A DNA stretch of 64,000 nt from Flavivirga algicola (lineage in GTDB: Bacteria > Bacteroidota > Bacteroidia > Flavobacteriales > Flavobacteriaceae). Positions 43,071 through 60,538 of the stretch are shown in pieces. The stretch covers positions 377,001 to 441,000 of the forward strand of contig NZ_JABBHF010000002.1 in the NCBI RefSeq assembly GCF_012910715.1, written 5' to 3'. Both the position numbers and the translations under genes were made by a program. The notes below the pieces were generated by a model. The model did not search any database. It was not told where the DNA came from and was given only the letters and a program-made list of their open reading frames with translations. Within the stretch, counting starts at the first letter, position 1. The number at the start of each line of letters is the position of its first letter.

Positions 43071-45715
43071 TAATTTAGTTTTTCTATTAAGACACCACTA
43101 ATTACAGGTTTACCTTGAATTGGTTTTAATGAAATTGTTAACCCTTCATTATTTTTAATTTTGGTTTTGGCAGACTTTTCAATCCCATACTTCTCAGGGT
43201 ATTTTTCTGCCATATTAAATTGGCTTTCTATACAAGTATCATTCAAATAAATATCGAAAATACGCTGTTCTTTTTTTACACCTATACTCTCTTCATTAGC
43301 ATTCAAATTATAAATATTTTCTGTGGGCTTTATTTTGGGTTCCACAAAAAACAAAATCACTTTATACATACCATTCGGAATATCCAGTTTATATTCGGTA
43401 CAGCCTTCCAACATCGTTTGAAATAAGGGTTCTAAATGGGTGTTTTTTATACTATAAGGCATGCCTTGATGCTTATCGCTACTTACATTAAAAATATTGC
43501 CATTTACATAACCAAAAGTCCCTTTTTCATAGGAACGGTCTGGAATAAAAGTCGTTTGGTGTTCTTTATCTATAAAATAAAAATGGGAGCCTAAGTTAAT
43601 TCCTAAGAGAGCGTATGTTTCAAAATTAACAGCTCCCATTTTAGATACCTGGATTGTTTTTTCTTCTGAAATAGTTTCAGAAATAACCTTAATCGTATTT
43701 ATTCCATTTTTAAACGGCATATCAATAGTAGCTACACCGTTTTTAAATCGTACATTTTGAAGTTTTTGGCCATTTAATAAGATATCTCCATTATTTTGAT
43801 TGGAATAAACCTGAACAGGGTAAGTATCATCGTTAAATAATACGAGTCCTTTTAAATAATTAGCAGCTATATGAATAAAGGGTTCTTGTTTATTTAAGAC
43901 CGATTTATACCAGAAATAAATATCTTTTGGTTCTCGGTTGTACCGAACCAAACCCTTTTGATTCACGTGCGGGATAGCATCTCCACGGAATTCAGAGCCA
44001 AAATCGGCAAAATTCCAGGCAGTCATCCCAGACATATAAGACCTTTGTGTGATTTGTTCGTAATAGGATTGGTGTAATTTTGATTGGTATTCTATAGAAA
44101 AATCGAACTTCTTAGGCGTTTTTGTAAAAATTCTAACATCAGCCCCAGGACCATATTCAGAAAGCAATAAAGACCGATTTGGATATCTTTTATGTTGTTC
44201 ATCTAAAAAAATACCCAAATCTGAAATGTCTTTATCGTACCAACCAAAGTATAAATTCCATCCGAATAACATTGGTAAATCGGCTATGCCCGTTTCATTG
44301 TATAATTCGTTTAAATGCCCTGCCATAACGGTAATATGATTTGGCGCTAACTCACGTGTTAATTGCTCTAATTGTTTCGCTAAAGCAAAAGCTGCTTTTT
44401 TTTGATTTTCTTTTTCTATTTCTATAGATTTATTATCAAACGCCAATCGCAAATAGATCTCGTTCATGTAACCAAACATCACTACAGAAGGATGGTTATA
44501 ATATTGTTTTATATGCTCTTTTTGCATATTTATACAGACATCAAAAAATGCTTTGGTGTCTGTTACTTTATTAACAATAGGTATTTCTGTCCAGATTAAA
44601 ATTCCCAACTTATCACACATATCGTACAACTCTCGAGATTGCGGGTAATGGGCATTTCTAAGTACGTTAGCCCCCATTTCCTTTATGAGTTGAATATCTT
44701 TTTTTTGGAGCTCTAATGGTACTGCATTTCCATAGCCTTGATAATCCTGATGGCGGTTTACTCCAATCAATTTCAAAGACTTCCCGTTTAAGAAAAAACC
44801 TTTATCTGCATCAACATGTACCCAACGAAAAGCAATATTTTGTTTTCTTTCATCTAAAATATTTTCACTATCGTCTATAAGTTGAAGCTGTAACTTATAT
44901 AAATATGGCGATTCGGGCGACCATAATTTGGGGTTGTAAATCTCTGAGAGCTTAATGTTTATGGCTTCGGAAACACCAGCACTTAAATTCAACTTGATCC
45001 GTTTAGAGAAAAGTGCATCATTATTAGCGTCTGAAAGGGATACTTTTATAATATTTGAAGTATTAATGCTTCCAAGATTATCAATTAAAACTTTGACCGA
45101 AACTCCTGCTTTTTCTTCTGAAACATGGTAATAATCTACATAAAACCCATCGGAAGCATGATCTGATAACGAGATATGCTGTTGGGGTTTTGAAATAAGT
45201 TGGACATCTCGATAGATTCCTCCATAAAAAGTAAAATCTGCATCCAAAGGCGGAACATTGGGATTATGGCTGTTATCGACTTTAACCTCAATTAAATTAT
45301 AGGTATCATACTTTATCCACTTCGAAATATTGAAATTAAACGCAGTATACCCCCCTTTGTGATTCCCGACGTGATTGCCATTCACATAAACATCCGTTTC
45401 TTGATTGACGCCTTTAAAATGTAGGTAATGGATTAAATCTTCTGTTTTTTTAGAAAAGAAAACCTGTTTTCTATACCACCCAACACCTCTATGATAGCCT
45501 TTTACATCATCAAAGGCATCATCCTTATTCCATGTATGCGGAATATTTACAGTTTCCCAATCGGTTGAAGCTTTTTCTCCTAGAATAAATTGCCAACCAG
45601 AATTTATTGTAACTGTTTGGGCTTCTATTTTAAACAAAACAAGTCCCCAAAACAACATAAAAGCAGTCATTCCAACTTTAAAGATTCTATTTATTTTCAA
45701 TGTAAATTGCTTCAC
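43070..45715 (-). CDS. GH2 glycosidase with C-terminal malectin-like domain
   Basis: The 881-residue protein has a signal peptide ending near FKIEAQ. The GH2 order is intact: sugar-binding jelly roll (WQFILGEKASTDWETVNIPHTW), Ig-like domain, then TIM barrel with LIGVNRHQDYQG, acid/base Glu in MFGYMNEIYLR and nucleophile Glu in LLLSEYGPGA. After the barrel come a beta domain and a malectin-like carbohydrate-binding domain (about 720-880, INLGSHFYF and YKVILFFVEPK). GH2 covers beta-galactosidase, glucuronidase and mannosidase activities; which applies cannot be told. It heads the GH2-esterase-sulfatase-GH97-EEP operon after a 216-bp spacer. Confidence 0.9.
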   Translation of the reverse strand: MKQFTLKINRIFKVGMTAFMLFWGLVLFKIEAQTVTINSGWQFILGEKASTDWETVNIPHTWNKDDAFDDVKGYHRGVGWYRKQVFFSKKTEDLIHYLHFKGVNQETDVYVNGNHVGNHKGGYTAFNFNISKWIKYDTYNLIEVKVDNSHNPNVPPLDADFTFYGGIYRDVQLISKPQQHISLSDHASDGFYVDYYHVSEEKAGVSVKVLIDNLGSINTSNIIKVSLSDANNDALFSKRIKLNLSAGVSEAINIKLSEIYNPKLWSPESPYLYKLQLQLIDDSENILDERKQNIAFRWVHVDADKGFFLNGKSLKLIGVNRHQDYQGYGNAVPLELQKKDIQLIKEMGANVLRNAHYPQSRELYDMCDKLGILIWTEIPIVNKVTDTKAFFDVCINMQKEHIKQYYNHPSVVMFGYMNEIYLRLAFDNKSIEIEKENQKKAAFALAKQLEQLTRELAPNHITVMAGHLNELYNETGIADLPMLFGWNLYFGWYDKDISDLGIFLDEQHKRYPNRSLLLSEYGPGADVRIFTKTPKKFDFSIEYQSKLHQSYYEQITQRSYMSGMTAWNFADFGSEFRGDAIPHVNQKGLVRYNREPKDIYFWYKSVLNKQEPFIHIAANYLKGLVLFNDDTYPVQVYSNQNNGDILLNGQKLQNVRFKNGVATIDMPFKNGINTIKVISETISEEKTIQVSKMGAVNFETYALLGINLGSHFYFIDKEHQTTFIPDRSYEKGTFGYVNGNIFNVSSDKHQGMPYSIKNTHLEPLFQTMLEGCTEYKLDIPNGMYKVILFFVEPKIKPTENIYNLNANEESIGVKKEQRIFDIYLNDTCIESQFNMAEKYPEKYGIEKSAKTKIKNNEGLTISLKPIQGKPVISGVLIEKLN

Positions 45716-45931: not shown

Positions 45932-48187
45932 TTATTCCAATATAAAGGTTTGTTCAAAATTAAAATCCGAAGTCCCTTTTATACTAATTTCAAATTCTCC
46001 TTGTTCCACTGTAAATTCTTTGTTGTTATAAAACTTTAAATCCTCAGCGGTCAAGCTAAAACGTACTTCTTTACTTTCTCCTTTTTTTAGAAATATTTTT
46101 TCGAACCCCTTAAGTTCTTTTATGGGCCTTGTAATACTCCCTACTTTATCGTGTATATATAACTGTACCACTTCATAGCCGTCATAATCTCCCGTATTTT
46201 TAATTTTAACAGAGGCTGTTAAAGTATCTGTAAATCCTATTTTATTTGTGGATAATTCAATATCAGAATATTCGAAAGTCGTGTAACTCAACCCATGACC
46301 AAAGGGATACAATGGTGTATTGGGTATATCGATATAATTGGATTTATAGTCTTCTTTAGGATTCTCTGGCGGAATTGGCCTTCCAGTATTTTTCATATTA
46401 TAATAAATAGGAACTTGCCCTAGAGTTCTTGGAAAAGTTACTGGCAATTTCCCTGATGGATTGTATGTGCCAAACAATACATCTGCAACACCATATCCAC
46501 CGCTGCTTCCTGGAAACCAAGTTTCTAAAATGGCATCTGCCAAGGTGTCTTCTTCCGATAAATCCAATGGACGTCCATTCATTAAAACTACAATGATTTT
46601 TTTATTAGGGACTGCTTTTCGAATCGCTCTTATTAAATCGGTTTGGCGTCCAGGTAACCCGATATTGGTTCTACTGGCTGCTTCACCACTCATATCGTAA
46701 TCTTCACCTAGCACCATCACCACTTTATCAGCTCTTTTTGCTACCCTAATAGCTTTTTTAAAGGCACTTTCATCGTCGCCTTCAATGTCGCAACCCTTAG
46801 CATACTTAATTTTAGAATCGTCCAGATATTCCTGAATACCTTGATATACGCTAATTGCTTTTCCTTTTCTATCGCCTGCTGCTGCCCAATTTCCTATAAT
46901 ATTTTCTTTATCTTTTACTAACGGCCCTATAAGTGCTATGGTTTGATTTTTATCTAAAGGCAATGCTTTATCATCATTTTTTAATAGCACCGAGGACATT
47001 GCGGCAGATTGACGCGCAGCTTCTAAAAACTCAGGTTTATAAATCACTTCTTTTTCACGTTGTTCATCACAATATCTATATGGGTCATCAAACAATCCCA
47101 GTTTGTATTTTGCCAAAAGAATACGCCGGCAGGCATCATTTATCAACGCTATATTAACCTGTCCCTCATTTACCAGTTCTTCTAAGTATAAACGGTTGGC
47201 ACTGCTCATCATATCCATGTCAATTCCAGCATCAATAGCTAGTTTCGTAGCATGTTTTTCATCTTTTGCAAATCCGTGCTCTACCAATTCATTAATGGCT
47301 GTATAGTCGGTAACAACAAACCCATTAAATCCCCATTCGTTTCTTAAAATATCTCTAAAAATAAATTTATTTCCTGTAGCTGGAACACCGTTCAACTCAT
47401 TAAAAGCTGTCATAAATGTTTCTACACCAGCATTTACCGTAGCCTTAAAAGGTGGCAGATATACATTGCGCAATTCATCATCTCCCATATTTACCGTATG
47501 GTAATCGCGGCCAGCCTGTGCAGCACCATAGCCCACAAAGTGTTTAGCACATGCCAAAATAGTATTGTGTTTTGATAAATCGTCTCCCTGAAACCCTTTT
47601 ACATAAGCTTTTGCTATTTCACTTCCTAAATAGACATCTTCTCCAGCGCCTTCCGATATACGCCCCCAACGCGGATCCCTCCCAATATCAACCATAGGAG
47701 CAAATGTCCAATGGATACCTTCAGCTGAAGCTTCTTCGGCTGCAATACGGGATCCTTTTTCTATATCTTCTAAGTCCCAACTTGCTGCCAAACCTAAATT
47801 GATAGGAAATATGGTTCTGAATCCATGAATAACATCGTAGCCAAAGAGTAATGGAATGCCTAAACGGGTTTCTTCAACCGCCATTTTTTGCAAATCTCTC
47901 GTGCCCTTAACACTATACACATTTAGCATGGCTCCAATATTCCCTTCTTTTATAAATTTTTTATTGTTTGAACTCACAGTGGGGCCCGTAACACTCCAAC
48001 CGCCACTGTACATAATAGTTTGACCAATTTTTTCCTGCAAAGTCATGATGTCCATCAATGAATCGACTTTAGCATCAAAAGGTGTTTCTGTTGAAGCAGT
48101 ATTTGCTCCCTTTTTTGTTCCTGTATGACAACTAAAAACAGTAAGTATGAGTAAAAAAACACAAGCTTTCGTTCGTTTTATATTCAT
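45932..48187 (-). CDS. GH3 beta-glucosidase, lipoprotein
   Basis: The 751-residue lipoprotein (LILTVFSCHTG) is a BglX-type GH3: an (alpha/beta)8 domain (LLFGYDVIHGFRTIFPINLG, the AKHFVGYG and HTVNMGDDE motifs, nucleophile Asp in GFVVTDYTAIN), an (alpha/beta)6 sandwich (MVLGEDYDMSGEAASRTNIG) and a C-terminal Fn3 domain (YIHDKVGSITRPIKELKGF). Next to two GH144 genes it probably cleaves sophorose and beta-1,2-glucooligosaccharides, as characterised GH3 enzymes do in comparable loci. It is 53 bp downstream of the second GH144 gene. Confidence 0.92.
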   Translation of the reverse strand: MNIKRTKACVFLLILTVFSCHTGTKKGANTASTETPFDAKVDSLMDIMTLQEKIGQTIMYSGGWSVTGPTVSSNNKKFIKEGNIGAMLNVYSVKGTRDLQKMAVEETRLGIPLLFGYDVIHGFRTIFPINLGLAASWDLEDIEKGSRIAAEEASAEGIHWTFAPMVDIGRDPRWGRISEGAGEDVYLGSEIAKAYVKGFQGDDLSKHNTILACAKHFVGYGAAQAGRDYHTVNMGDDELRNVYLPPFKATVNAGVETFMTAFNELNGVPATGNKFIFRDILRNEWGFNGFVVTDYTAINELVEHGFAKDEKHATKLAIDAGIDMDMMSSANRLYLEELVNEGQVNIALINDACRRILLAKYKLGLFDDPYRYCDEQREKEVIYKPEFLEAARQSAAMSSVLLKNDDKALPLDKNQTIALIGPLVKDKENIIGNWAAAGDRKGKAISVYQGIQEYLDDSKIKYAKGCDIEGDDESAFKKAIRVAKRADKVVMVLGEDYDMSGEAASRTNIGLPGRQTDLIRAIRKAVPNKKIIVVLMNGRPLDLSEEDTLADAILETWFPGSSGGYGVADVLFGTYNPSGKLPVTFPRTLGQVPIYYNMKNTGRPIPPENPKEDYKSNYIDIPNTPLYPFGHGLSYTTFEYSDIELSTNKIGFTDTLTASVKIKNTGDYDGYEVVQLYIHDKVGSITRPIKELKGFEKIFLKKGESKEVRFSLTAEDLKFYNNKEFTVEQGEFEISIKGTSDFNFEQTFILE

Positions 48188-48240
48188 ATTTTAATTTTTT
48201 TTAAAGCATTATTTAAGGGGCTTAGAATCTGTATAAATTT

Positions 48241-49626
48241 TTAATAATTGAAACCTAGTTTATCCAATCCTTTTTTAACGTCTTCATTCTGCATAAATAA
48301 ATTCCAAAGTAACCCTGTTCTATGGTTTTCAATCATGATAACTTGGGGACCTTGATCTATGGCCAAATAGGTCTCGGTAACCCAAAAATCGTAGTGCGGA
48401 CTAAAAGCATCGTAAAACCCTGCTGGCCCTAACATTTTATCTTTGTTCTGGTATAAATAATGCATCACTTTTAAAGATTCGACAGGGGTATATGGTATAG
48501 AACTTATGGCTGCTGTTGGTGACACAACGCCTTTATCGTTAGATGGACTGTGAGCAGAATAGCCTCTAGTTCCATCAGTATTTCTGGAATAGCTGGCTGT
48601 TAAGCCCCAACAATTTTCCCCGTAATCGGTATAATTTTTTGGATTGGCAATACAATATTGACGATTAATTTGGGTATGGTTAACTACCAGATCCCAATAA
48701 TTACCATATGTGTCGGTTAAATTTTCAGGCTTTAGACCCAGAAATGAATAATGACTAAAAAACAAAGGGCCTCCAAAATTTGAAACGCCAGCATGTTTTA
48801 ATATAAGTGGAAAGCCATATTGCGAACTGGAAGATACTATGGATCCGCTATTAGCCCATCCTTTTTCGTAAGCTGATTTATCAATGGAATAATCTGGAGA
48901 AGCTGCTGCCAAAATATATGTTATTAAAACTTCATTATAGCCCGTTAGTTTTAAATTAATATCGAAACCATGATTTGGACTCCAATGCCAATATAATACA
49001 TCTTGATTTTGGGTGTACCAATTCCACTCCACTCCTTTCCAGAGTTCATCTGCTTTTTGTGCTAAAGTTTTTTCAATATCTGATCCGTTCTTAAAATATT
49101 CCTTTATACAAATGAGCCCTTGTGCTAAAAATGCTGTTTCTACTAAATCGCCACCATCGTCTTTTGCACTAAAAGGGATTGTACTTCCAGAGTTTCCATC
49201 TGTCCAATGGGACCATGCACCGTGAAACCGATCTGCATTTTCTAAAAATGCCAGTATTTTGTTAAGCCTTGAAACGGCTTGTTCTCTGGTAATAAATTGG
49301 CGTTCTATACCAACCAAAATACTCATCAATCCAAAACCAGTACCACCAGTAGTTACTACATTTTGATTTAGGGTTGGTTCATTAGGGTGATAACGCTCTT
49401 TTGCTGCACCAGAATTGGTATGTGCAAAATCCCAAAAGTATTTAAAGGTTTCTTTTTGAGTTAAATCCATCATTTCTTCATCAGTCAAAGGATCAACTGT
49501 AACAGGATCATCACCATTAGCGTCGGGATTATAAGGTTCTTGATATCCAGGCCCATCATCATTTCCACACGAGAAACATAAAACCCATAATATTATTAAC
49601 CCATATCGAATCATATTTCTATTCAC
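48241..49626 (-). CDS. GH144 enzyme, lipoprotein (endo-beta-1,2-glucanase family), downstream copy
   Basis: The 461-residue lipoprotein (ILWVLCFSCGN) has an acidic Pro/Asp linker and then the GH144 (alpha/alpha)6 domain (PF10091, often mislabelled glucoamylase). Diagnostic segments: VVTTGGTGFGLMSILVG, DRFHGAWSHW, DDGGDLVETAFLAQG, VLYWHWSPNHGF, GYNEVLITYILAA, VSPTAAISSIPYTP and YLAIDQGPQVIMIEN. The acidic triad Asp156, Asp160, Glu163 has the spacing reported for the active site of the founding Chitinophaga enzyme (135/139/142). The upstream gene is a close paralogue, and the two overlap by 8 bp. Expected activity: endo-cleavage of beta-1,2-glucan at the surface. Confidence 0.88.
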   Translation of the reverse strand: MNRNMIRYGLIILWVLCFSCGNDDGPGYQEPYNPDANGDDPVTVDPLTDEEMMDLTQKETFKYFWDFAHTNSGAAKERYHPNEPTLNQNVVTTGGTGFGLMSILVGIERQFITREQAVSRLNKILAFLENADRFHGAWSHWTDGNSGSTIPFSAKDDGGDLVETAFLAQGLICIKEYFKNGSDIEKTLAQKADELWKGVEWNWYTQNQDVLYWHWSPNHGFDINLKLTGYNEVLITYILAAASPDYSIDKSAYEKGWANSGSIVSSSSQYGFPLILKHAGVSNFGGPLFFSHYSFLGLKPENLTDTYGNYWDLVVNHTQINRQYCIANPKNYTDYGENCWGLTASYSRNTDGTRGYSAHSPSNDKGVVSPTAAISSIPYTPVESLKVMHYLYQNKDKMLGPAGFYDAFSPHYDFWVTETYLAIDQGPQVIMIENHRTGLLWNLFMQNEDVKKGLDKLGFNY

Positions 49627-50980
49627 TTTTCTGATACGAAAACCCTAATTTATTGAGACCTTTTTGTACGTCGCTGTTTTTCATGAATAAATCCCATAGC
49701 ATACCTGAACGATAATTTTCAATCATTACAGGAATGGGACCTTGATCGATAGCCAAATATCTTGGGTTATACCAATCATGCTCAAAACTGAATGCGTCGT
49801 AAGGTCCATATTTTCCTATTAGACTATCATGGTCCTTGTATAGTTTATGTAACATCTGCATACTTTCTTTTGGGGTATATGGAAACGAAGCCAATGCTGC
49901 TGTTGGTGCAATAACACCTAAGTCTTTGTCTGGTCTGTGTCCTTTATATCCTTTTACGGAATAGCTTGATGTTAATCCCCAGATACTATCTCCATAACCT
50001 TTGTAGTTTTTTGGATTAGCCACGGCATGTTTATAATGAATTTTAGCTTGGTTTTGAACCAGTTTCCAATAGTCTGCATAAGTGTCGGATAGACCTTTTG
50101 GTTTTAACCCTGTATAAGAATAGTGCGCCCAGAACATGGGTCCCACTGGTGATTCATCATGCTCGTAATAATCAAGTACCAAGTCTTCATCATAATACTT
50201 TTCATTGGAAACGATGTCTCCGTTTCTAGCCCAACCTTTATGATATACTGCTTCATTTATTGAATGTGTAGGCGATGAAGCAGCCAAAATATACATGATT
50301 AAACATTCATTGTAACCGCCAACAGGGAAGTTCATTTCCCAATTGTATTGGGGTGACCAATGCCAATACAAAACATCTTCACCCTTAGTGTACCAATCCC
50401 ATTCCACCTCGTGCCAAAGTTTCTCAATTTTTGTAGTTAATTTTTGTTCTTCTTTGTTACCATTTTTAAAATACTCGGCAACGGTCAACATCCCTTGAAT
50501 TAAAAATGCGGTTTCAACCAAATCGCCTCCATTATCTTTTTTACTGAAAGGCATCGTTTTACCTGTTTGTCCATCCAGCCAATGTGGCCATGCACCATGG
50601 AATCTATCGGCCTTCTCTAGAAAATCTATCATTTTGACAAAATGGTTAAATGCCTGTTCTCTAGTAATAAAACCTCGTTTTACGCCTACCAAGATAGCCA
50701 TCATCCCAAAACCTGTCCCGCCTGTAGTTACTGTATGCTTAGGAGATGTTGGATAGATATTATCCATATGTAAACGCTCTGGTGCCAGTCCTGAATTTGG
50801 TTCTGCACCATCCCAAAAATAATTAAAGGTTTGCTTTTGAATGGTGTCCAATAAAGCGCCATCATCTAGAACATAACGTGTATTATTAGATGTTAAATTA
50901 GAATTATTGACTTTTTCATTGTTTTTACAATTGAAAAGGAAAAACAATATCACTGACAAAAAAAGTAGTCTTATCTTCAT
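49619..50980 (-). CDS. GH144 enzyme, lipoprotein, upstream copy
   Basis: I take the ATG at 50978-50980 (MKIRLLFLSVILFFLFNC), a good lipoprotein signal with Cys18; an in-frame TTG 15 bp earlier is less likely. The protein is then 453 residues. It shares the GH144 core with the next gene: TVTTGGTGFGMMAILVGVKR, DRFHGAWPHW, DNGGDLVETAFLIQG, VLYWHWSPQYNW and YLAIDQGPIPVMIENYRSG. The triad is Asp149, Asp153, Glu156; the residue after the first Asp is Asn instead of Asp, one of several differences from the other copy that could alter specificity. It is the first gene after the hairpin at 51006-51062. Confidence 0.88.
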   Translation of the reverse strand: MKIRLLFLSVILFFLFNCKNNEKVNNSNLTSNNTRYVLDDGALLDTIQKQTFNYFWDGAEPNSGLAPERLHMDNIYPTSPKHTVTTGGTGFGMMAILVGVKRGFITREQAFNHFVKMIDFLEKADRFHGAWPHWLDGQTGKTMPFSKKDNGGDLVETAFLIQGMLTVAEYFKNGNKEEQKLTTKIEKLWHEVEWDWYTKGEDVLYWHWSPQYNWEMNFPVGGYNECLIMYILAASSPTHSINEAVYHKGWARNGDIVSNEKYYDEDLVLDYYEHDESPVGPMFWAHYSYTGLKPKGLSDTYADYWKLVQNQAKIHYKHAVANPKNYKGYGDSIWGLTSSYSVKGYKGHRPDKDLGVIAPTAALASFPYTPKESMQMLHKLYKDHDSLIGKYGPYDAFSFEHDWYNPRYLAIDQGPIPVMIENYRSGMLWDLFMKNSDVQKGLNKLGFSYQKSE

Positions 50981-51005
50981 AAAAAATAGGTACAAATGAA
51001 TAAAT

Positions 51006-51062
51006 AAATTCTAGCTGCATTTATTCCCTAGCATATTCTTTTTATATATGCAGCTAGAATTT
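51006..51062 (-). terminator. 15-bp perfect inverted repeat between SGBP and GH144 genes
   Basis: AAATTCTAGCTGCAT (51006-51020) and ATGCAGCTAGAATTT (51048-51062) pair perfectly around a 27-nt loop. On the minus strand it lies between the LamG gene stop (51105) and the GH144 start (50980) and is followed by ATTTATT. It can act as a partial terminator or as an RNA-stability element for the upstream SusC/SusD/SGBP message. Confidence 0.7.
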
Positions 51063-51104
51063 TCAATTATAAACAACAAACTAAACTAAAAATAATAATC
51101 TCTA

Positions 51105-52892
51105 TTAATTACCCATAATGTCCTGAATTTCGGACTGGGTAAGTGCTTTATTGTATAGATGTAATTCATCTAAGAAGCTAGAATCCGATTTATGATTCCA
51201 ACCTGTAAAACGAGGTGCCCCAGACATTATCGATAAAATATCACATCCTGTCCAGTCTACACCTGTTATATCACTTTCTTTAGCGACTTCTCCATTAATA
51301 TATACAATGGCTTTGCTACCTGAAATTGTAAATGCCAAGTGTACCCATTCATTAGCAGTAGGGTCTACATCTGCAGCAGTACCGCCATCTACCCAGACAT
51401 TTGCCGCACCAGTTCCAACATTTAATTTGAAACGTTGCATGCCACCAGCATCTTCTCTAAAAAATCGGAATCCTGCATTTCTATTATTTTGAACATCAGG
51501 ATAATTTGCATTTCCAGTATCCTCTGGACCAATTACCAATACACCTGCTCTATCGGGTGTTGCATTCACTTTATGCCACATGGCTGCACTAAATTCACCT
51601 GACAATAATCCTGTGGTTGGGAAGGTTAAATAAGCATCATCAACACCCGCATAGGCATCGGCTCCCAGCTTACTCTCTCCAGCAAAACCAGGACTACCAA
51701 CTGTTGTTGCTGTAGCACCAGTTACCCAATTTTTATATGTGCCATCAAAGGCCATGTACATGGTTTCTCCATCTGCGGGTGTATAAGGATTTGTGACTCC
51801 TAGTATATTCTGAATTTCTCCTTGAGACAGAGCTACATTAAAGAAACGTAGTTCGTCCATATAACTGTTATCCGATTTATGGTTCCAACCCGTAAAACGA
51901 GGTGCGCCAGACATTATGGACAAAATGTCGGTACCAGTCCAATCTACAGGGCTTTCCAAAGCACTTTCTTTTGCCAATTGACCATTTATATAAACACGAG
52001 CTTCAGTAGTTGAAATAGTAAATGCGATACTAACCCACTCATCTTTATTAGGATCTATGTCGGAAGCATCTCCCCCATCAACCCAAACGTTTTTATCTCC
52101 AATTCCAACATTTAGCTTAATACGTTGGTCGCCTCCCGCATTTTCTCTGAACAATCTAAACCCACTGTTTCTGTTATTTTGTTTAACAGGATAATCGGCA
52201 TTGGTTGGGTCTTCTGGACCAATAACCAAAATACCTGCCCTATCTGGAGAAGCATTTACTTTGTACCAGAAAATAGCAGAAATCTCATTTCCTAGCTGCA
52301 TCGTACTAGTTGGTAGTGTTAAATATGAATCTTCTGTACCTGCATAGGCATTGTTACTAGCCAAACCTTCTCCCGCAAAACCTGGATTCCCAACCTCTGT
52401 TGCCCTGGTAACACTAATAAATTCTGTGTAATCTGTTTCAAAATCCATATAAATGGTTTCATTCGCAAAAAGTGGAATATATGGCGGTTCTTTTTCAAAA
52501 TTTGCGGTTGCAGTCGTGTTGTTTCCACTAATATCTGTAGCAACAATTTTAAGCTCATGTTGTCCGGTAGTGACATTATCAAAAGGCACTTCGGCCAATA
52601 CCCGTCTGTAATCTTTAAAATCACCACTCATCGAGGCTATTTCACTGTTATTAATTAACACAGAGATTGTTTCTACCTCAATATCGTCAGTAACTTCAAA
52701 CTCAATGTTTATAGCCACAACAGGGTCATTTACTTTAATTTTTGTCCCATCTACAGGATACTTTAAAGTCACTTGAGGTGCACCAGCATCGGCTCCTGGG
52801 TCTACCTTGGTTATTGGATCTATACCATTATCACAGGAAAGCACAAGTAATAATGCTACAATTCCGAAAAATTTATTTATAAATATTTTCAT
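51105..52892 (-). CDS. surface glycan-binding lipoprotein with two LamG domains
   Basis: The 595-residue lipoprotein (ALLLVLSCDNG) starts with an Ig-like domain (PQVTLKYPVDGTKIKVNDPV) and then has two tandem LamG/concanavalin-like domains, about residues 145-375 and 378-595. They are strikingly alike: both contain SPDRAG or TPDRAG followed by (I/V)LVIGPED, QNNRN(S/A)GFR, RIKLNVG or RFKLNVG, VWVDGG, and SIMSGAPRFTGWNHKSD. No catalytic residues are visible. Following SusD in the operon (12-bp gap), it is the likely surface glycan-binding protein of this locus and takes the place that SusE/F hold in the alpha-glucan locus. Confidence 0.85.
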   Translation of the reverse strand: MKIFINKFFGIVALLLVLSCDNGIDPITKVDPGADAGAPQVTLKYPVDGTKIKVNDPVVAINIEFEVTDDIEVETISVLINNSEIASMSGDFKDYRRVLAEVPFDNVTTGQHELKIVATDISGNNTTATANFEKEPPYIPLFANETIYMDFETDYTEFISVTRATEVGNPGFAGEGLASNNAYAGTEDSYLTLPTSTMQLGNEISAIFWYKVNASPDRAGILVIGPEDPTNADYPVKQNNRNSGFRLFRENAGGDQRIKLNVGIGDKNVWVDGGDASDIDPNKDEWVSIAFTISTTEARVYINGQLAKESALESPVDWTGTDILSIMSGAPRFTGWNHKSDNSYMDELRFFNVALSQGEIQNILGVTNPYTPADGETMYMAFDGTYKNWVTGATATTVGSPGFAGESKLGADAYAGVDDAYLTFPTTGLLSGEFSAAMWHKVNATPDRAGVLVIGPEDTGNANYPDVQNNRNAGFRFFREDAGGMQRFKLNVGTGAANVWVDGGTAADVDPTANEWVHLAFTISGSKAIVYINGEVAKESDITGVDWTGCDILSIMSGAPRFTGWNHKSDSSFLDELHLYNKALTQSEIQDIMGN

Positions 52893-52904
52893 CTTGTTAA
52901 TTTT

Positions 52905-54452
52905 TTAATTAGTTATTTCACCCAAAATCGGAAACTCGTCTATTTGATCCTGATGGTATGTCACAAAAGCCTTATCAGCAGTAAAAGTTCTACCTTCATA
53001 ACTTAATTCACCATATCTTTCCAGTCTTACCATATCAAAAAATCGCTTGCCCCACTCCATAGCAAGTTCAGCATATTTCTCATCGACAACTTGATCTAGA
53101 GTCACGCCACTTAAAGGTGTAAGCCCTGCTCTTGTTCTAACCATATTAACTGCTTGGTCTGCTGTCATTGCCAAATTTGAAGCTCCTTGAATTAAAGCTT
53201 CTGCATACATTAGAAGTACTTCTGCATAACGATAAACGATATAGTGCTTATTACTACCATAGGCTGTTCTACCAGATATCAATTGATTAGAAGGTAAATA
53301 GTGCTTTCCACTTGAGAAAATATTTCTTTCACTGTTATTCAATTGATCGCCATCTCTAGTTGTTGAGGAAACAAAGGACGGCAATGTAGCTACTGTGTAA
53401 GTTGTACTCGAAATAATACTATCTATACCTTTATCTGTAAATAACACTGAAGTTTCCAGGCGTATATCATCGCCCCTATCGAGCATGAACTTTACATATT
53501 TCATACTAGGTTCAAAGAAGCCCCATCCGCCTCCAGCACCAGCAACTGCAGGCGTCCAGCCTTGAGGTCCATAAGGCGCATATAAATGACTTTTACGATC
53601 ACCCTCTCCCGATCCAAAGTCAGAAAATTGCATTTCAAAAAGATTTTCGTCACTCAATTTACCAGGCGTCTTGAAAAGCTCGTAATAGTCTCCAAAAAGA
53701 TTAAACTTTCCTGAGCTTATAATTTCTCCTGTGGCATCAGCTACTACTTGATAATTTTTCAATTCTTGATTTGCTGACGCCTTAATCATTAACGCAGTGT
53801 ATTTAGTAACTCCACCTGGCAAATCCGTTCGTTCGTTTGGTCGCATGTCCAATAAAAATGGTATGGCTTCATCCATTTGATCTGAAATATGCTGCATTAC
53901 CTCATCTTTATTAGGCACTGACGTTACATTAGCAAAATCATTAAGGTTTGAAGATTCTGGAATAAAAACCGCGCCATAAACCTGAGAAAGCTGTAAAAGC
54001 AAAATAGCCCTAAGCACTTTAGCTTCAGCTACATATTGTTCTCCCAAAGCAACACCGTTGGCATCGGCTAAATCCATATATCTCTGAATCTGCTCCATCG
54101 CAGTATGAGCCGTTATTATAGTTCCATAATACCCTTCCCATAAGGTTCTAGACCCAAAAAATGAATTATCGTATACATAGCGATCTTGATTTTTTAAGCC
54201 TTGTTGGTCTCCAGCAGCATTTACATCATCACCTCTTGTTGAGACTACTAACGGTCTTTCCCAGTTTCTATAGGATACTTCTCCATACAAACCTATAAGA
54301 GAAAAAACCATGTCTTCCGTTTTTGAAAAATCAGTACCTCCAGCAAAATTGTTATTCAATTCTGGTTGATTTAATTCACTAGAACAGCTAGTAAGTAAAA
54401 CCCCCAACAATACCAATAGTATTTGTAATTTGTTTGTTTTTATAAATATCAT
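52905..54452 (-). CDS. SusD/RagB lipoprotein (second locus)
   Basis: The 515-residue lipoprotein (ILLVLLGVLLTSCSS) has the SusD features: YVAEAKVLRAILLLQLSQVYG (helical core), YIVYRYAEVLLMYAEALIQGA and EKYAELAMEWGKRFFDMVRLERYG (C-terminal segment). It should cap SusC and bind the target glycan. It lies 12 bp downstream of susC. It is distant from the SusD at 29146-30750, consistent with a different glycan. Confidence 0.94.
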   Translation of the reverse strand: MIFIKTNKLQILLVLLGVLLTSCSSELNQPELNNNFAGGTDFSKTEDMVFSLIGLYGEVSYRNWERPLVVSTRGDDVNAAGDQQGLKNQDRYVYDNSFFGSRTLWEGYYGTIITAHTAMEQIQRYMDLADANGVALGEQYVAEAKVLRAILLLQLSQVYGAVFIPESSNLNDFANVTSVPNKDEVMQHISDQMDEAIPFLLDMRPNERTDLPGGVTKYTALMIKASANQELKNYQVVADATGEIISSGKFNLFGDYYELFKTPGKLSDENLFEMQFSDFGSGEGDRKSHLYAPYGPQGWTPAVAGAGGGWGFFEPSMKYVKFMLDRGDDIRLETSVLFTDKGIDSIISSTTYTVATLPSFVSSTTRDGDQLNNSERNIFSSGKHYLPSNQLISGRTAYGSNKHYIVYRYAEVLLMYAEALIQGASNLAMTADQAVNMVRTRAGLTPLSGVTLDQVVDEKYAELAMEWGKRFFDMVRLERYGELSYEGRTFTADKAFVTYHQDQIDEFPILGEITN

Positions 54453-54464
54453 AGCTATTATTTT

Positions 54465-57400
54465 TTAAAGTTTAATGTTAACCCCCAAGGTATACACGCC
54501 TGGTATAGGGTATGTTTGTTGATCTCTACCGTTTGCCACTTCTGGATTAAATCCATTATAATCAAATAAAGAAAGTGGTCTTTCTGCGGTTACGTAGAAT
54601 CTGATATCTGGATTGAATTTTCCTTTTAATTTTGGTAGTGTATACCCTAAAGTAACATTTTGCAGACGAATAAAATCGCCGTCTTCCACAAAGAAACTAT
54701 TTAGAAACTGATTACTCCAAGGGTTTCTTATACCTCGAGCCGACGGATATGTATTTGAAGTTCCAGGACCATGCCATCTGTTGATTGCAAAATCTCTATC
54801 GATATTAGGGTCTGGTGTTTGTCTAATTTGAAAACGCTTAATATTGGCTATTACATTGCCGCCTTGTCCTATGACATTTAGAGAAAAGTCCCAAGCTTTA
54901 TAATTGAAACCAAAATTAAAACCGAAGGAATAGGATGGTAGATAAGAACCTAAATCTACTCTATCTTGCGCATCTATTTCTGAATCTCCATTGTGGTCTA
55001 CAAACCTGAAATCACCTGGCTCTACAGTTAAGCCATTTCCGCGCGCTGCAACGGCTGCTGGATCTGCTAAAATTTCTTCTTCTGTTTGATATACCCCTGC
55101 AACCTCAAGACCGAAAAAAGCGTCTATAGAACCTCCAACTACAGATCTTTGGGCCACATCTCCACCAGTAGTTAAATTCTCCTGTCCTGCTAAGTCTAAT
55201 ATTTCATTTTTTAAGGTAGAAAAGTTTCCACCTATGGTATAACTAAAATCATCTGAAACACGCTTCGTCCAATTTAATACCAGTTCAAAACCTGAATTTT
55301 TAATTCTTCCTATATTTTGTCTGGTTTCCCCTGGCACTAAAAGCCTGGAAACTGGTATGATGGCATCTTTAGTCTCTCTGCTATAATAATCGGATTCTAT
55401 AGATAATTGGTTATCAAATAACCTTGCCGTAATACCAAAATTTGTTTCTTCGGTCACCTCCCATTTTAAAGCCTCAAAGTCACTACTTGTTACCAAACCT
55501 GGGAAGCGTACGTCTCCAAAAGCTACATCAGTTTCTTCCGATGTTATGCCTCCTGAACTGGAATTTACATTTGCATTTCCTAACTCTCCCCAACTGGCTC
55601 TTAACTTTAAGAAATCAAAAATACCATTGTCTTTCATAAAAGACTCTTCTGAAATCACCCAGCCAGCTCCAACAGTAGGAAAGTACCCCCATTTTTCTTG
55701 ATATTTGCTAGTTCCATCGGCACGGAATGTACCATATAATAGATATTTATTATCATAATTATAAGCGACTCTTCCAAAGTATGAAAAGAAATATTGTCTA
55801 ACGCCGTTATCACCAACGCCATCAATATCTATAGTTTTTGATAAATCTAAAAAATACGACTCATCGCCTATCCCCGGACCATTTGGAAAATTCAGCCCTT
55901 TTGCTTCTAATTGTTCAAAAGATCTATCTCTAAAAGATGTACCTGCCAAAACAGTCAAGTTATGCTTGCCAAAATCATTATTATAGGTTAATGTATTGTC
56001 CCAAGTTTGTTCAGAAAACGTCTCGTTTCTTTTAATTAATTCTGCATTTTCTCTAAAAGCATTTCCATTACCAAAGAAGAAAGGCAACCTCACTTCTCTT
56101 GTTTCAAGAGTTTCAAAATTATGATAGTAAGCCGTTTTAAAATTTAATTTATCAGGAATGACTTCATATTGTAAATCAAAAGTCATTAATGTATTTCTTA
56201 TTTTATTTCTGTTCTCAGTATTTTCCATTAGAGGGAATGGGTTCTGTGTACCTCTATAACCTAAATCTTGTGCATTTGCATAAGGTTTTGGAAAAGCATC
56301 TGTTTTAGATGGGTCTAAAACCGGCATGGTAGGTACTGCGAAATAAGCTAATGCAAAGGCGCCTTCTTCTGGACGATACCTGGTAGCATTACTTAAAAGC
56401 GCCGAAACACCAACTTTTAATCGATCGCTTATATCAGCACTCAATTTGGTTCTAATATTAAAGCGCTCATAATCATTTTTCATTCTAAGGATACCTTCTT
56501 GTTCAAATTGACTTAGTCCAACTGAATAGTTAATACCTTCGGTTCCCCCAGTAACACCCAAACTGTGATTTTGTATAAGCGCCTGACGCAAAATTAAATC
56601 ATACCAATCTGTATTAACATCAGGAACATTGGGATTGATTCTACTTCTCCCATAACGTTGCATAGCATTTTCTATGAATTGAGCTTCTGCGACAGAACCA
56701 GATTCTCTAGCTAAAGTAGAAAACTGTTCTGAGTTTGAGAGTTTCACTATATTATGAGCAATTTGAACCCCTTGATAGCCATTATAAGTAATTTGAGGTT
56801 TTTGATTAGCCTTTCCTGAATGTGTTTCAATAAGTATCACACCGTTTGCGGCTCTAACACCATAAATAGCTGATGCTGAGGCATCCTTTAATACTGAAAT
56901 CGTTTTAATGTCTTCATTATTTAAAAAATCGATATCATCGAAAAAAGCGCCATCAACAACATAAAGCGGGTTAGAAGCCCCATTGCCTGTATAAGAACCC
57001 AGGCCACGTACCCTAACCGTTGGAGATGTACCTGGTGCCCCTCTACTTACTACTTGTAAACCTGCTACTTTTCCTTGAAGGGATTGCATAGCAGCCCCAG
57101 CAGGTGTTCTTGTAATATCCTCAGATTTAATAGTTGTAATAGCACCTGTTAAATCTGCTTTCTTTTGTGTACCATAACCAATAACCACAACTTCTTCTAA
57201 CGTTGCTATATCAGATTCTAAAGTTACGTTTACTTGAGTTTGATTTTGAATTAAGATGGATGTCGTTTTAAAACCAAGCGAACTAAATTCTAATGTCTCA
57301 CCTTGGTTTACTTCAATAGAATAACGCCCGTCAAAATCTGTACTTACACCTCTAATTGTTCCTTTTACAATAACACTTGCTCCAGGTATTGGCATATTAT

Positions 57401-57497
57401 CTTCAGAACTAATCACTGTTCCTCCAATCGTTTTTTCCTGTGTAAAAGCATGGATCGTAAACAAAAGAATTAGCAATAAAGTAAATCTTGTTTTCAT
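54465..57497 (-). CDS. SusC-like TonB-dependent receptor (second locus)
   Basis: The 1010-residue protein has a signal peptide (LLLILLFTIHAFTQE), a CarboxypepD_reg-like domain (GGTVISSEDNMPIPGASVIV), a plug (EEVVVIGYGTQKKADLTGA, then LKDASASAIYGVRAANGVI) and a barrel ending GVYTLGVNIKL. It heads the susC-susD-SGBP operon. Its 224-bp leader contains the four TACGTCA heptamers. The regulator gene upstream is transcribed in the same direction. Confidence 0.95.
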   Translation of the reverse strand: MKTRFTLLLILLFTIHAFTQEKTIGGTVISSEDNMPIPGASVIVKGTIRGVSTDFDGRYSIEVNQGETLEFSSLGFKTTSILIQNQTQVNVTLESDIATLEEVVVIGYGTQKKADLTGAITTIKSEDITRTPAGAAMQSLQGKVAGLQVVSRGAPGTSPTVRVRGLGSYTGNGASNPLYVVDGAFFDDIDFLNNEDIKTISVLKDASASAIYGVRAANGVILIETHSGKANQKPQITYNGYQGVQIAHNIVKLSNSEQFSTLARESGSVAEAQFIENAMQRYGRSRINPNVPDVNTDWYDLILRQALIQNHSLGVTGGTEGINYSVGLSQFEQEGILRMKNDYERFNIRTKLSADISDRLKVGVSALLSNATRYRPEEGAFALAYFAVPTMPVLDPSKTDAFPKPYANAQDLGYRGTQNPFPLMENTENRNKIRNTLMTFDLQYEVIPDKLNFKTAYYHNFETLETREVRLPFFFGNGNAFRENAELIKRNETFSEQTWDNTLTYNNDFGKHNLTVLAGTSFRDRSFEQLEAKGLNFPNGPGIGDESYFLDLSKTIDIDGVGDNGVRQYFFSYFGRVAYNYDNKYLLYGTFRADGTSKYQEKWGYFPTVGAGWVISEESFMKDNGIFDFLKLRASWGELGNANVNSSSGGITSEETDVAFGDVRFPGLVTSSDFEALKWEVTEETNFGITARLFDNQLSIESDYYSRETKDAIIPVSRLLVPGETRQNIGRIKNSGFELVLNWTKRVSDDFSYTIGGNFSTLKNEILDLAGQENLTTGGDVAQRSVVGGSIDAFFGLEVAGVYQTEEEILADPAAVAARGNGLTVEPGDFRFVDHNGDSEIDAQDRVDLGSYLPSYSFGFNFGFNYKAWDFSLNVIGQGGNVIANIKRFQIRQTPDPNIDRDFAINRWHGPGTSNTYPSARGIRNPWSNQFLNSFFVEDGDFIRLQNVTLGYTLPKLKGKFNPDIRFYVTAERPLSLFDYNGFNPEVANGRDQQTYPIPGVYTLGVNIKL

Positions 57498-57721: not shown

Positions 57722-60517
57722 TTATTTGAAATTCCTTAAATAATCACCCAGAGATTTATCATTTTCTAAATTTAGTTTGCGTTTTAATCTATATCGATGG
57801 GTTTCTAGACCTCTTATTGACACATTCATGAGTGGTGCAATTTCTTTAGTCAACAAATTCATTTTGATGTAGGCACAGATCTTTAAATCTTTATGGGTTA
57901 ATTGCGGGTGTTTATTTTTTAATTGGTTGAAAAATTCTTCATGTACCTGATTGAAATTATATTCAAATATTTCCCATTCGTCTTCATGACCTATGGAGTT
58001 GTCTATTTTACGTAAGAGATGTTTGTACGCCAATGAATTTGTAAACCCTGTTTTTTGTTTTTCCAACTCCTCTTTTATTTCCAGCATAGATTCATTTTTC
58101 TTTACTAAAGCCATAGCTGTATTAGCAAGTTGCTTACTCTTAAGCTTCACTTCATTCTTTAAGGACTGATTTCTTAACTGAACAATTTTCTTTTCATTTT
58201 CAATGGCTTTTTCTTTAAGAAGATCTTCTTGTTCCTTCGCAAATTTTTCTTCTAAAAGTCTTTGTTCTTTAGCTATTTTCTTCTTATGTAGTTTATAAAA
58301 TAACAGAATAATCAAAATAGCCGTAACTCCATACAAAGCAATGCCTATACTATTCTTATACCAGGGTGGTAAAACGGTAAAATTTATTACTTTAATATCT
58401 GAAGTATCCCCTAAGCTATTAGCTGTTCTAAAATGTAACGTATAATCTCCATTACTTAAATTTGATAATCTTATTTTACCATTTTCAGTTTTTATCCATT
58501 CTAGAGAACCGTTTATTGTTAGAGCATACTCAAAAAAATGATTCGAGGATTTAGCTGAAGATATTGCTATATTAACATCCTCTTTAAATGGGAAATCAAA
58601 AGTGGCTTTTTGGTCTATGTCTATATAATCATCTCCTACTTTTATATTTTCCAGCATGGGTTTATACAAAGTGTTTGTATGAGAATAATTCTTTTTGTTT
58701 ACATTCATAAACCCACCATAAAGATTAAGGGAGTATAGCGAGTCATTTATTTTTGAAATTTTTTCTGAACCTACAATGAGTCTATCTTTAAAATAACTAC
58801 TTGGAATGTGTAAATCATCTTCTCCTTCTATTAAGGACTGTATATAAATCTTATCCTTGTTATTTTTAATCGCCAGTTCGCTATTATTTTCTTCTGAAAG
58901 CAAATAAGCTTCATCTCCAAAGTTTTCATTTAATAAATTGAAAGGTACGATGCTATCTATTAAGGATTCATATTTTAACCACCCCTCATTGGTTTTAAAG
59001 CATATATCACTTTTAATTTTGTAAACCCTAACGTTAAACTCAGAATTAAGCCCTTTCTTTTCATAGGGTACAATACTTATAATTTTATCATGATTTTCAT
59101 TAAATTCCACTCTAAACAACCCTTTATAAGCGTGGGCTAACCATGCTGTATATTGATCCTCGAAAGCCAAATATTTTATAGGAATGGTAGGTTCTCCTAA
59201 ATGTTTTACGTGCCATGCTCCTTCATGTTTTTCATATTTGACCAACCCCGTATAAGTCCCTTGTATGTAAGTGTTATTTTCTTCTGGCACCTTTTTTATT
59301 GTCCACCCCCCTGTGCTATTAGATATTTTTTTCTTTAGTTTTTTATTTTTCACTAAATAGGTTCCGTTATTGTGTCCACAAAATAAATCACCTTTTATTT
59401 TATTCAATGACCAGACCTGGCCTTGAGATTCTTCTATAAATTGTAATTTATTTTCTTTATCAATGTAAAACAGTCCTGTGTTAGTACCTATATATGTAAT
59501 GCCTTCATAATTGATGATATCGTAAACAGCGCCTAACTTCCCTGAGTTGTCATTAAAAAAAGAATAAGGGCTGCTTAAATCGACGGAAGCCAAACCATTA
59601 TCCAAACCAACATATAATTTCGATCGCTCATCTACTGTTTGACATAAAACAGTATTGTTTAACAGACCATTTTCTTTATTAATATGGTACAATACTTTTC
59701 CTTGGTTATTAGAAACATAAACCCCATTTTTAATAGTTCCAAAAATCATATCACCATTTTTTAATTTGGAAAAACTATTGAGTTGATGCTTTTTTATAAT
59801 ATCGTTTATTTCGGAATACCATGAAGTTAATTGGGTTTCCGAATAAGTAAAGCACCCTTTCAAAGCTGTAGAAATTAATAGTTTGCCTTTGTAATTTGAA
59901 ATGCTTATAACTTTAGAATCTTTAAGCAATGAACCATTTATATAGGGGTATAAGTGATCTTCACGCAAAATAAAAATACCATGTTTTAAAGTGGACACAT
60001 AAATAATATCATCAACAATATCAATAGATATGATAGTCGATTCTGGCTTTATGGTTATAATTTTCCCGTCTTGGTATATATAAAGGTTTAAAAAAGACCT
60101 AAATATTATGGCGTCTTTATGAGATAATATCTGCCAAAATTCCTCGTTTAATTGAGGTTGTTTTTCAATTAAATCATTTAATGATGTATATCCCAGTTTA
60201 CCTTTATTATTTCTTCTCCAATAACCAAATTCTTCATAAGAACCTGTGTATATAAGGTCTTTGTGGGCTAAAACAGATCTTATAATTGTTTTATTTGGCA
60301 ATTCATTAAAATTCCAATTGATGCCGTCAAATTCCAGTAACCCATTATTGTTAGCTACATAGAGTTTTCCATCTTCTGATATGGATACGCCCCAATTTTG
60401 ATTACCAGCATTGAATTCAGATAAAGAGTAGTTTTTGAAGTATGGGGTATACTGGGCATATAATTCATTTCGGCATAAAAATATACCAATTAAAATAAAA
60501 AAATATTTAAATTTCAT
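57722..60517 (-). CDS. membrane sensor with propeller, Y_Y_Y domain and LuxR-type HTH
   Basis: I take the ATG at 60515-60517 (MKFKYFFILIGIFLC signal); an ATG two codons earlier is also possible. The protein is about 931 residues. After the signal come two-component-regulator propeller repeats (NWGVSISEDGKLYVANNNGLLEF, ITYIGTNTGLFYIDKENKL), a Y_Y_Y domain (SNGDYTLHFRTANSLGD), one membrane helix (SIGIALYGVTAILIILLFY), a long coiled coil (about 760-850) and a C-terminal LuxR-type HTH (LTHKDLKICAYIKMNLLTKEIAPLMNVSIRGLETHRYRLKRKL). There is no kinase or receiver domain, so it is a one-component transmembrane regulator. The periplasmic part probably senses the glycan; the HTH would bind near susC. 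Confidence 0.9.
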   Translation of the reverse strand: MKFKYFFILIGIFLCRNELYAQYTPYFKNYSLSEFNAGNQNWGVSISEDGKLYVANNNGLLEFDGINWNFNELPNKTIIRSVLAHKDLIYTGSYEEFGYWRRNNKGKLGYTSLNDLIEKQPQLNEEFWQILSHKDAIIFRSFLNLYIYQDGKIITIKPESTIISIDIVDDIIYVSTLKHGIFILREDHLYPYINGSLLKDSKVISISNYKGKLLISTALKGCFTYSETQLTSWYSEINDIIKKHQLNSFSKLKNGDMIFGTIKNGVYVSNNQGKVLYHINKENGLLNNTVLCQTVDERSKLYVGLDNGLASVDLSSPYSFFNDNSGKLGAVYDIINYEGITYIGTNTGLFYIDKENKLQFIEESQGQVWSLNKIKGDLFCGHNNGTYLVKNKKLKKKISNSTGGWTIKKVPEENNTYIQGTYTGLVKYEKHEGAWHVKHLGEPTIPIKYLAFEDQYTAWLAHAYKGLFRVEFNENHDKIISIVPYEKKGLNSEFNVRVYKIKSDICFKTNEGWLKYESLIDSIVPFNLLNENFGDEAYLLSEENNSELAIKNNKDKIYIQSLIEGEDDLHIPSSYFKDRLIVGSEKISKINDSLYSLNLYGGFMNVNKKNYSHTNTLYKPMLENIKVGDDYIDIDQKATFDFPFKEDVNIAISSAKSSNHFFEYALTINGSLEWIKTENGKIRLSNLSNGDYTLHFRTANSLGDTSDIKVINFTVLPPWYKNSIGIALYGVTAILIILLFYKLHKKKIAKEQRLLEEKFAKEQEDLLKEKAIENEKKIVQLRNQSLKNEVKLKSKQLANTAMALVKKNESMLEIKEELEKQKTGFTNSLAYKHLLRKIDNSIGHEDEWEIFEYNFNQVHEEFFNQLKNKHPQLTHKDLKICAYIKMNLLTKEIAPLMNVSIRGLETHRYRLKRKLNLENDKSLGDYLRNFK

Positions 60518-60538
60518 TACCATGCAGTCAACATTCAA

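Follow-up and report, generated by a model that had tools for sequence, protein, structure and literature searches.

A stretch of 64,000 nucleotides of the Flavivirga algicola genome (contig NZ_JABBHF010000002.1, forward-strand positions 377,001 to 441,000; hereafter the window) contains a polysaccharide utilization locus (PUL) that encodes two candidate beta-1,2-glucanases of glycoside hydrolase family GH144, GH144a and GH144b, together with a sulfatase, SulfD. The genes for SulfD and GH144 are tied to one another across the Flavobacteriaceae and, on the basis of this association and of gene content, homology, catalytic residues and synteny, we lean towards reading the locus as serving the catabolism of a large beta-1,2-glucan, probably sulfated at O6, that would be imported only after it has been cut.

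The original prediction, made from the sequence of the window, placed SusC, SusD and LamG-domain proteins, tandem GH144 enzymes and a GH3 enzyme between coordinates 45932 and 57497, and all six genes are found there by Pfam, PDB and coordinate comparison, every one on the minus strand. However, the locus does not end at 45932; the co-directional run that starts with SusC continues from 57497 down to 37584, where an EEP-family gene is the last, and it includes the SulfD gene. Gaps or overlaps between genes within this run range from -8 to 216 bases. The adjacency of SusC and SusD and the co-directional carbohydrate-active enzyme genes are those of a Bacteroidota PUL.

Loci of this kind are already known in outline, since three studies describe them (PMC6499787, PMC8072126, PMC10405439), and the window is a further case; the idea of a dedicated flavobacterial beta-1,2-glucan locus, also put forward in the original prediction, was thus in print for marine Bacteroidetes. 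Passages of a 2019 report place GH144 PULs among the abundant PULs, note that marine organisms add a sulfatase to them, as in the window, and propose a sulfated marine polysaccharide that is ubiquitous but not yet known (PMC6499787); these passages report a class of PUL, whereas here the sulfatase is a single orthologous group confined to GH144-positive genomes of our sample, and a clade history and a predicted division between surface and periplasm are added. The cluster of Maribacter dokdonensis 62-1 described in 2021 has one GH3 gene, two GH144 genes, susCD and sulfatases, the same core gene set as the window, and GH144 genes are reported in all Maribacter and Zobellia and in many marine flavobacteria (PMC8072126). 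The window goes beyond that description in having GH2, esterase, GH97 and EEP genes, some or all of which the passages on the Maribacter cluster leave unmentioned. GH144-based PULs predicted for beta-1,2-glucan, as here, are also described in marine and hadal Bacteroidetes, where they are enriched in Mariana Trench bottom waters and relatively common in Mesoflavibacter (PMC10405439); one of the loci that we compared (L042) belongs to Mesoflavibacter zeaxanthinifaciens DSM 18436, which that report mentions by name. In the open-access literature that we searched, we found no description of the restriction of this sulfatase to genomes with GH144, of a division of the enzymes between surface and periplasm, of a two-clade origin of the GH144 pair or of a contrast with compact loci.

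Linkage of a sulfatase to GH144 genes

SulfD (40520..42190, minus strand) contains the Pfam Sulfatase domain (E 1e-48), and the CGPSR motif is present in 54 of the 54 homologues tested, so that both the domain and the C-x-P-S-R signature of formylglycine-type (S1) sulfatases are present. The distribution of SulfD was determined in 299 Flavobacteriaceae genomes, drawn regardless of GH144 and including that of the window, using thresholds of E <= 1e-200 for SulfD and E <= 1e-100 for GH144. SulfD is present in 48 of these genomes and GH144 in 75; all 48 are GH144-positive, and none of the 224 GH144-negative genomes encodes SulfD (Fisher 1.8e-36, with species treated as independent and relatedness uncorrected). 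The SulfD genomes represent 42 of the 236 genera sampled, and SulfD occurs in 45 of the 53 genomes with at least two GH144 genes versus three of the 22 with one. The two genes lie within 25 kb of each other on the same contig in 47 of the 48 genomes, in 40 of them on the same strand.

A genome scan with GH144b recovered 589 loci encoding a relative, and the best 80, from Flavivirga, Gaetbulibacter, Winogradskyella, Allomuricauda, Maribacter, Polaribacter and others, were compared with the window. The full set of regulator, SusC, SusD, LamG, GH144a, GH144b and GH3 genes is present in 67 of the 80, and in all 67 the order is identical; the remaining loci lack LamG (five), GH144a (three) or the regulator (two), or are cut by contig ends (three). 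A SulfD orthologue with at least 62% identity lies downstream on the same contig and strand, at a distance of 2.4-15.8 kb, in 60 of the 79 loci searched (L036 was left out). Locus L070 was dropped from an initial 61 because its contig ends 0.6 kb past GH144b and the sulfatase match cannot lie downstream; L070 and L025, L060 and L061, whose contigs end early, were also kept out of the count of loci lacking SulfD.

For the 60 SulfD loci, longer stretches were merged and scored for gene content. SusC, GH144a, GH144b and GH3 are present in all 60, as is SusD when any match is counted (56 at a 60-bit threshold, with four weak matches of 56-59 bits), and LamG is present in 57. Upstream of SusC, 58 have a homologue of the regulator, L028 reaching a contig end at that point and L065 having none; a count of 59 takes in one downstream copy. 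Other components are an esterase-like protein of ~270 aa (47 loci), GH43 (41), the esterase (37, four cut by the stretch edge), EEP (36), GH2 (25) and GH97 (9). The window differs from many of its relatives in having neither the ~270-aa esterase nor GH43, and from most in its type of GH3. The shortest loci, such as L074-L077, comprise SusCD, LamG, both GH144 enzymes, GH3 and SulfD, and scarcely more.

The closest structure to SulfD is PDB 9s03 (950 bits), which is titled merely 'putative sulfatase' and for which we found no publication in the open-access literature, followed by the GlcNAc-6-sulfatase 5g2v (531 bits) and a mucin-desulfating sulfatase (520 bits). SulfD may be a 6-O-sulfatase like those of subfamily S1_11. 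Chains named as phosphonate monoester hydrolases score 80-81 bits, and that assignment is accordingly disfavoured. Because SulfD resembles GlcNAc-6-sulfatase and the EEP protein matches a mannosyl-6-phosphatase, decoration of the glucan at O6 is the most economical guess that the homologues allow, rather than a result.

The GH144 pair

GH144a (49619..50995) and GH144b (48241..49626), both encoded on the minus strand, match PF10091 with E-values of 2e-75 and 3e-78, and across the catalytic domain they match CpSGL, an endo-beta-1,2-glucanase of known structure (PDB chain 5gzh), with 58.3% identity (E 8e-167) and 54.7% identity (E 6e-151), respectively. In CpSGL, E211 is the general acid and E142 the likeliest general base; E211, F268 and Y330 are clan-defining, and D135, D139 and E142 are the essential acidic residues (PMC12102758). 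The acidic triads named in the original prediction are right: CpSGL D135/D139/E142 correspond to D156/D160/E163 in GH144b and to D149/D153/E156 in GH144a when numbering begins at the MKIR methionine (D154/D158/E161 when it begins at the TTG start). The general acid is likewise conserved, as E230 in GH144a and E232 in GH144b. In an alignment of 303 sequences, the positions equivalent to D135, D139, E142, E211, F268, Y330 and D400 are kept in both window proteins and in 77 of 77 GH144a and 81 of 81 GH144b proteins. CpSGL homology and the clan and acidic residues place both enzymes in GH144, and a beta-1,2-glucan target is therefore probable from family membership, as had been proposed; the E-values, the residues and the retention of a SusCD-type locus in many genera support this. 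Both window proteins are ~460 aa, so that GH144a, judged by its length, is not of the longer BDI_3064-like type with an N-terminal extension.

A shift of one or both GH144 enzymes to another linkage or sugar appears very unlikely. There is a precedent of sorts in the GH35 enzyme encoded beside a Bacteroides xylanisolvens GH144 homologue, which is a beta-1,2-galactosidase inactive on beta-1,2-glucooligosaccharides (PMC11739564), and 13 alignment columns consistently distinguish GH144a from GH144b. However, the 55-58% identity to CpSGL and the invariance of the seven tested positions in all 158 GH144a and GH144b proteins argue against such a change.

The original prediction regarded the two enzymes as paralogues; there are indeed two GH144 genes, but they do not derive from a recent duplication. 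GH144a and GH144b share 52.7% identity, below that of GH144a with CpSGL, and in a midpoint-rooted tree they fall in separate clades with support of 0.988 and 1.0, respectively. GH144b groups with the single GH144 of a sister genus, g2, and with proteins of family f2 (support 0.986), and GH144a groups with the GH144 proteins of other families of the class, on the CpSGL side, where the deeper support is moderate (0.765). The tree and the identity rule out recent tandem duplication, and we interpret the pair as an old association of separate clades.

Predicted location of the locus proteins

Surface lipoproteins of Bacteroidota are marked by acidic residues straight after the lipidated cysteine, and the export signal of F. 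johnsoniae, SDDFE, was itself derived from SusD proteins (PMC5080379). We scored lipoprotein tails with a custom lipobox finder, requiring at least two acidic residues at positions +2 to +6 and leaving out proteins with no detected lipobox. The tail of GH144b in the window, CGNDDG, resembles a surface lipoprotein export signal. Acid-rich tails are present in 71 of 73 LamG, 62 of 69 SusD and 50 of 79 GH144b homologues, and in 5 of 75 GH144a, 0 of 47 GH3 and 9 of 53 SulfD homologues; the GH3 lipoprotein of the window also has no export tail. Scored by net charge, the tail is negative in 65 of 79 GH144b versus 3 of 75 GH144a proteins. These tails suggest that GH144b is a probable endo-enzyme at the cell surface and that GH144a, which has no surface-export tail, is probably periplasmic. 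SusD (52905..54452, minus strand; PF07980, SusD_RagB, E 3e-26) is a SusD-type surface glycan-binding lipoprotein, and the LamG lipoprotein (51105..52892, minus strand), a candidate surface glycan binder, has a Pfam Big_7 match and Laminin_G_3 matches in two stretches; its two LamG domains are 63% identical to one another by self-comparison.

Proposed pathway and alternative substrates

In the pathway that we propose, SusD and the LamG lipoprotein would grip the polymer at the surface, surface-displayed GH144b would cleave it mid-chain, and SusC (54465..57497, minus strand), a TonB-dependent transporter with a TIGR04056 match of 798 bits (cut-off 368) and Pfam Plug and CarboxypepD domains, would bring the oligosaccharides in. 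Periplasmic GH144a would then shorten the imported oligosaccharides, SulfD would strip sulfate in the periplasm, the esterase, EEP phosphatase, GH2 and GH97 would take off other substituents or caps, and GH3 would liberate glucose. Both the order of the steps and the large size of the polymer are predictions.

The last of these steps is the least certain in this species. GH3 (45932..48187, minus strand) is a BglX-like beta-glucosidase lipoprotein with a GH3 N-terminal domain (E 2e-74) and an NF011678 (BglX) match of 821 bits (cut-off 666). Among structures it scores 802 bits to JMB19063, 735 to 5xxl and 576 to Lin1840, whereas the GH3 of the related locus L016 scores 1094 to 5xxl and 588 to Lin1840. 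We take 5xxl to be BT_3567, the GH3 enzyme of the Bacteroides thetaiotaomicron GH144 cluster, and by the lower of these 5xxl scores the window GH3 is not of the BT_3567 type. The L016 type is present in 64 of the 79 related loci, and the window has the other type. In 15 loci of its close relatives (L001-L012, L018, L021 and L023) the other type alone is seen in the stretch, and elsewhere it is a second copy in 16 loci. The window nonetheless resembles the B. thetaiotaomicron cluster in having a GH3 beta-glucosidase beside a GH144-family glucanase (PMC8861115). Lin1840 is a Listeria GH3 enzyme of beta-1,2-glucan metabolism (PMC4757417) that prefers sophorose (PMC8861115), and because the window and L016 enzymes score alike to it, the window enzyme may split sophorose, as put forward in the original prediction, although the case is weaker here than for most such loci.

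Four accessory enzymes are encoded downstream of GH3, all on the minus strand. These are a GH2 enzyme with a malectin domain (43070..45715; Pfam, and 623 bits to PDB 8dhl), an esterase-like alpha/beta-hydrolase (42183..43070; weak esterase matches in NCBIfam and PDB), GH97 (38416..40509; 616 bits to PDB SusB) and a homologue of EEP-family phosphatases and phosphodiesterases (37584..38423; PF03372, E 3e-17; 193 bits to the mannosyl-6-phosphatase 4c1r). GH97 has the equivalents of SusB E439, E508 and E532, whose roles as catalytic glutamates have been described (PMC12102758), and is thus assigned to the SusB type of inverting alpha-glucosidases. Six of the 60 SulfD loci (L008, L014, L017, L022, L038 and L059) have an additional gene inserted behind GH144b, for a calcineurin-like metallophosphoesterase, which is a further phosphoesterase linked to the pathway.

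GH2 and GH97, and GH43 in other loci, suggest further sugars or linkages. One alternative is that the substrate is a complex sulfated algal heteropolysaccharide in which beta-1,2-glucose forms a short spacer or side chain and GH2, GH43 and GH97 act on the other sugars. The frequencies of GH43 (41/60), GH2 (25/60) and GH97 (9/60) are consistent with this, and the genome may be rich in sulfatases, the SulfD query giving 58 first-look candidates, four of them at E <= 1e-50. However, L074-L077 and others keep both GH144 enzymes, GH3 and SulfD, yet have none of these three families in the stretch seen, and binding at subsites -3 and +2 has been suggested to be required for these glucanases (PMC12102758), which a short spacer would not supply; we therefore regard this alternative as unlikely.

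Compact loci and the wider phylum

A survey of the phylum identified 106 GH144-positive genomes, reduced to 100 by excluding that of the window and leaving out G141, G344 (match at contig start), G109, G161 and G440. It reached ~9 kb to each side of the best GH144 match, with some stretches cut by contig ends, and a SulfD orthologue was scored above 600 bits. SulfD orthologues are present in five of eight Flavobacteriaceae outside g2, none of 19 g2 genomes, none of seven in f2, one of 36 in other families of the class and none of 30 elsewhere. The corresponding counts for any sulfatase on the strand are 5/8, 0/19, 0/7, 2/36 and 3/30. Genome G305, one of the eight Flavobacteriaceae outside g2, is scored as lacking SulfD within ~9 kb, yet has it ~12 kb away, and locus L143 counts as 'single' since the other GH144 gene is more than 6 kb away. 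Outside the class, L215, L216 and L223 combine a GH144 gene with a distantly related sulfatase, which scores 237-261 bits to SulfD or SulfU and may have been recruited independently.

The g2 loci resemble the window in having regulator, SusC, SusD, GH144 and GH3 genes, in the same order in 19 of 19, and differ from it in having one GH144 without the acid-rich tail, no LamG match and no sulfatase within ~9 kb on the strand. Their tails are acid-rich in none of 19 GH144 proteins and in 17 of 19 SusD proteins, although the difference shrinks when net charge is the sole measure, with a negative tail in 11 of 19 GH144 versus 19 of 19 SusD proteins.

These compact loci bear on a second alternative, in which Proteobacteria shed the substrate, an osmoregulated periplasmic glucan (OPG) made of beta-1,2-glucan in linear or ring form, alpha-1,6-closed rings included. 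GH144 would open and cut the glucan, removal of succinyl or acetyl groups would fall to the esterase and that of phosphoglycerol-type groups to EEP and the sulfatase-superfamily enzyme, and GH97 would handle the alpha-glucosidic linkage. Bacteria are known to make beta-1,2-glucans (PMC12102758), OPG backbones bear O-succinyl and other substituents (PMC4726272), and Xanthomonas has an alpha-1,6-closed beta-1,2-glucan ring (PMC11228985). In line with this alternative, the window has genes for an esterase, for a homologue of EEP phosphatases and for a GH97 of the alpha-glucosidase type. However, SulfD groups with sulfatases and not with phosphonate monoester hydrolases, and we know of no sulfated OPG, although no deep search for one was made. 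Small glucans should need neither a surface endo-enzyme nor a LamG binder, the compact single-GH144 loci, which have no tail or LamG, suit an OPG role better, and GH97 is present in just nine of 60 loci. We thus consider an OPG substrate rather unlikely for the window. The original prediction had offered feeding on other bacteria or an overlooked marine glucan, and the inclusion of a dedicated sulfatase in the locus favours the marine glucan, leaving the bacterial source as the less probable of the two.

A broader proposal, which we put forward tentatively and with some doubt, is that these loci constitute a family-wide flavobacterial pathway for a large O6-sulfated beta-1,2-glucan that has never been isolated. 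The ancestor may have been a compact locus whose periplasmic GH144 acted on small imported beta-1,2-glucans; GH144b would then have moved to the surface, and a dedicated sulfatase, a LamG binding protein and a second periplasmic GH144 of ancient divergence would have been added. If this is true, the locus predicts both the existence and the main features of the polymer.

Several observations weigh against a sulfated beta-1,2-glucan as the substrate of the window locus. The functions of all of the locus proteins are predicted, and the polymer may be a heteropolysaccharide of which beta-1,2-glucose is one part. The Fisher tests assume an independence of species that does not hold, SulfD and GH144 are on opposite strands in seven of 47 genomes, and 15 of the 75 loci with enough sequence have no SulfD. 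Loci L170-L172 of f2, outside the Flavobacteriaceae, have two GH144 genes with neither a sulfatase nor LamG seen. Among GH144b tails, 29 of 79 have fewer than two acidic residues, and the export-like tail occurs in 11 of 15 loci without SulfD versus 37 of 60 with it; we looked for a coupling of SulfD presence to the GH144b tail in these 15 and 60 loci and did not find it, and because loci lacking SulfD keep the tail, any coupling between the sulfatase and the surface enzyme is not a strict one. The window GH3 differs from the type that is usual in such loci, and a search of its own genome for the L016 type gave no match above 52% identity.

Given the linked sulfatase and the probable surface endo-enzyme, many flavobacteria would meet a sulfated beta-1,2-glucan polymer. 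Beta-1,2-glucans are regarded mainly as bacterial products. The genes could also serve as tools for finding the polymer, since an inactive GH144b could act as a capture probe and SulfD could be used to test whether sulfate is present, and the two gene sets, one that includes the sulfatase and one that lacks it, provide a natural contrast.

Other features of the window

Upstream of SusC is a gene for a membrane sensor-regulator (57722..60538, minus strand), the probable regulator of the locus, with a Pfam GerE match (E 4e-5) corresponding to a C-terminal LuxR-type helix-turn-helix and a Y_Y_Y match (E 5e-4) that is below the Pfam cut-off. The flavobacterial promoter motif has five matches in the window versus 6.2 expected, and none is ahead of the operon. 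Between 42000 and 61000 there are 76 sigma-70-like sites versus 76.9 expected and six terminator-like sites versus 10.5 expected, and Rfam gives zero matches across the window at gathering scores.

A second sulfatase gene (60881-62344) lies upstream of the regulator, as does a GH2 gene that is cut by the window edge (60881-64000 for the two together). This sulfatase was rejected as the conserved one, having a strong orthologue in one locus alone, L007 (699 bits), within the stretches examined. On the other side of the locus, a starch/maltodextrin-type cluster occupies 12952-37480 on both strands and seems to be a separate unit; one side encodes GH13 enzymes, GH97, GH65, a HAD phosphatase, an MFS transporter and a LacI regulator, and the facing side encodes SusC, SusD, two SusE/F-type proteins and an amylase with a T9SS tail. 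A DUF6786 protein gene adjoins a gene for a ThuA-domain protein at 10451-12920.

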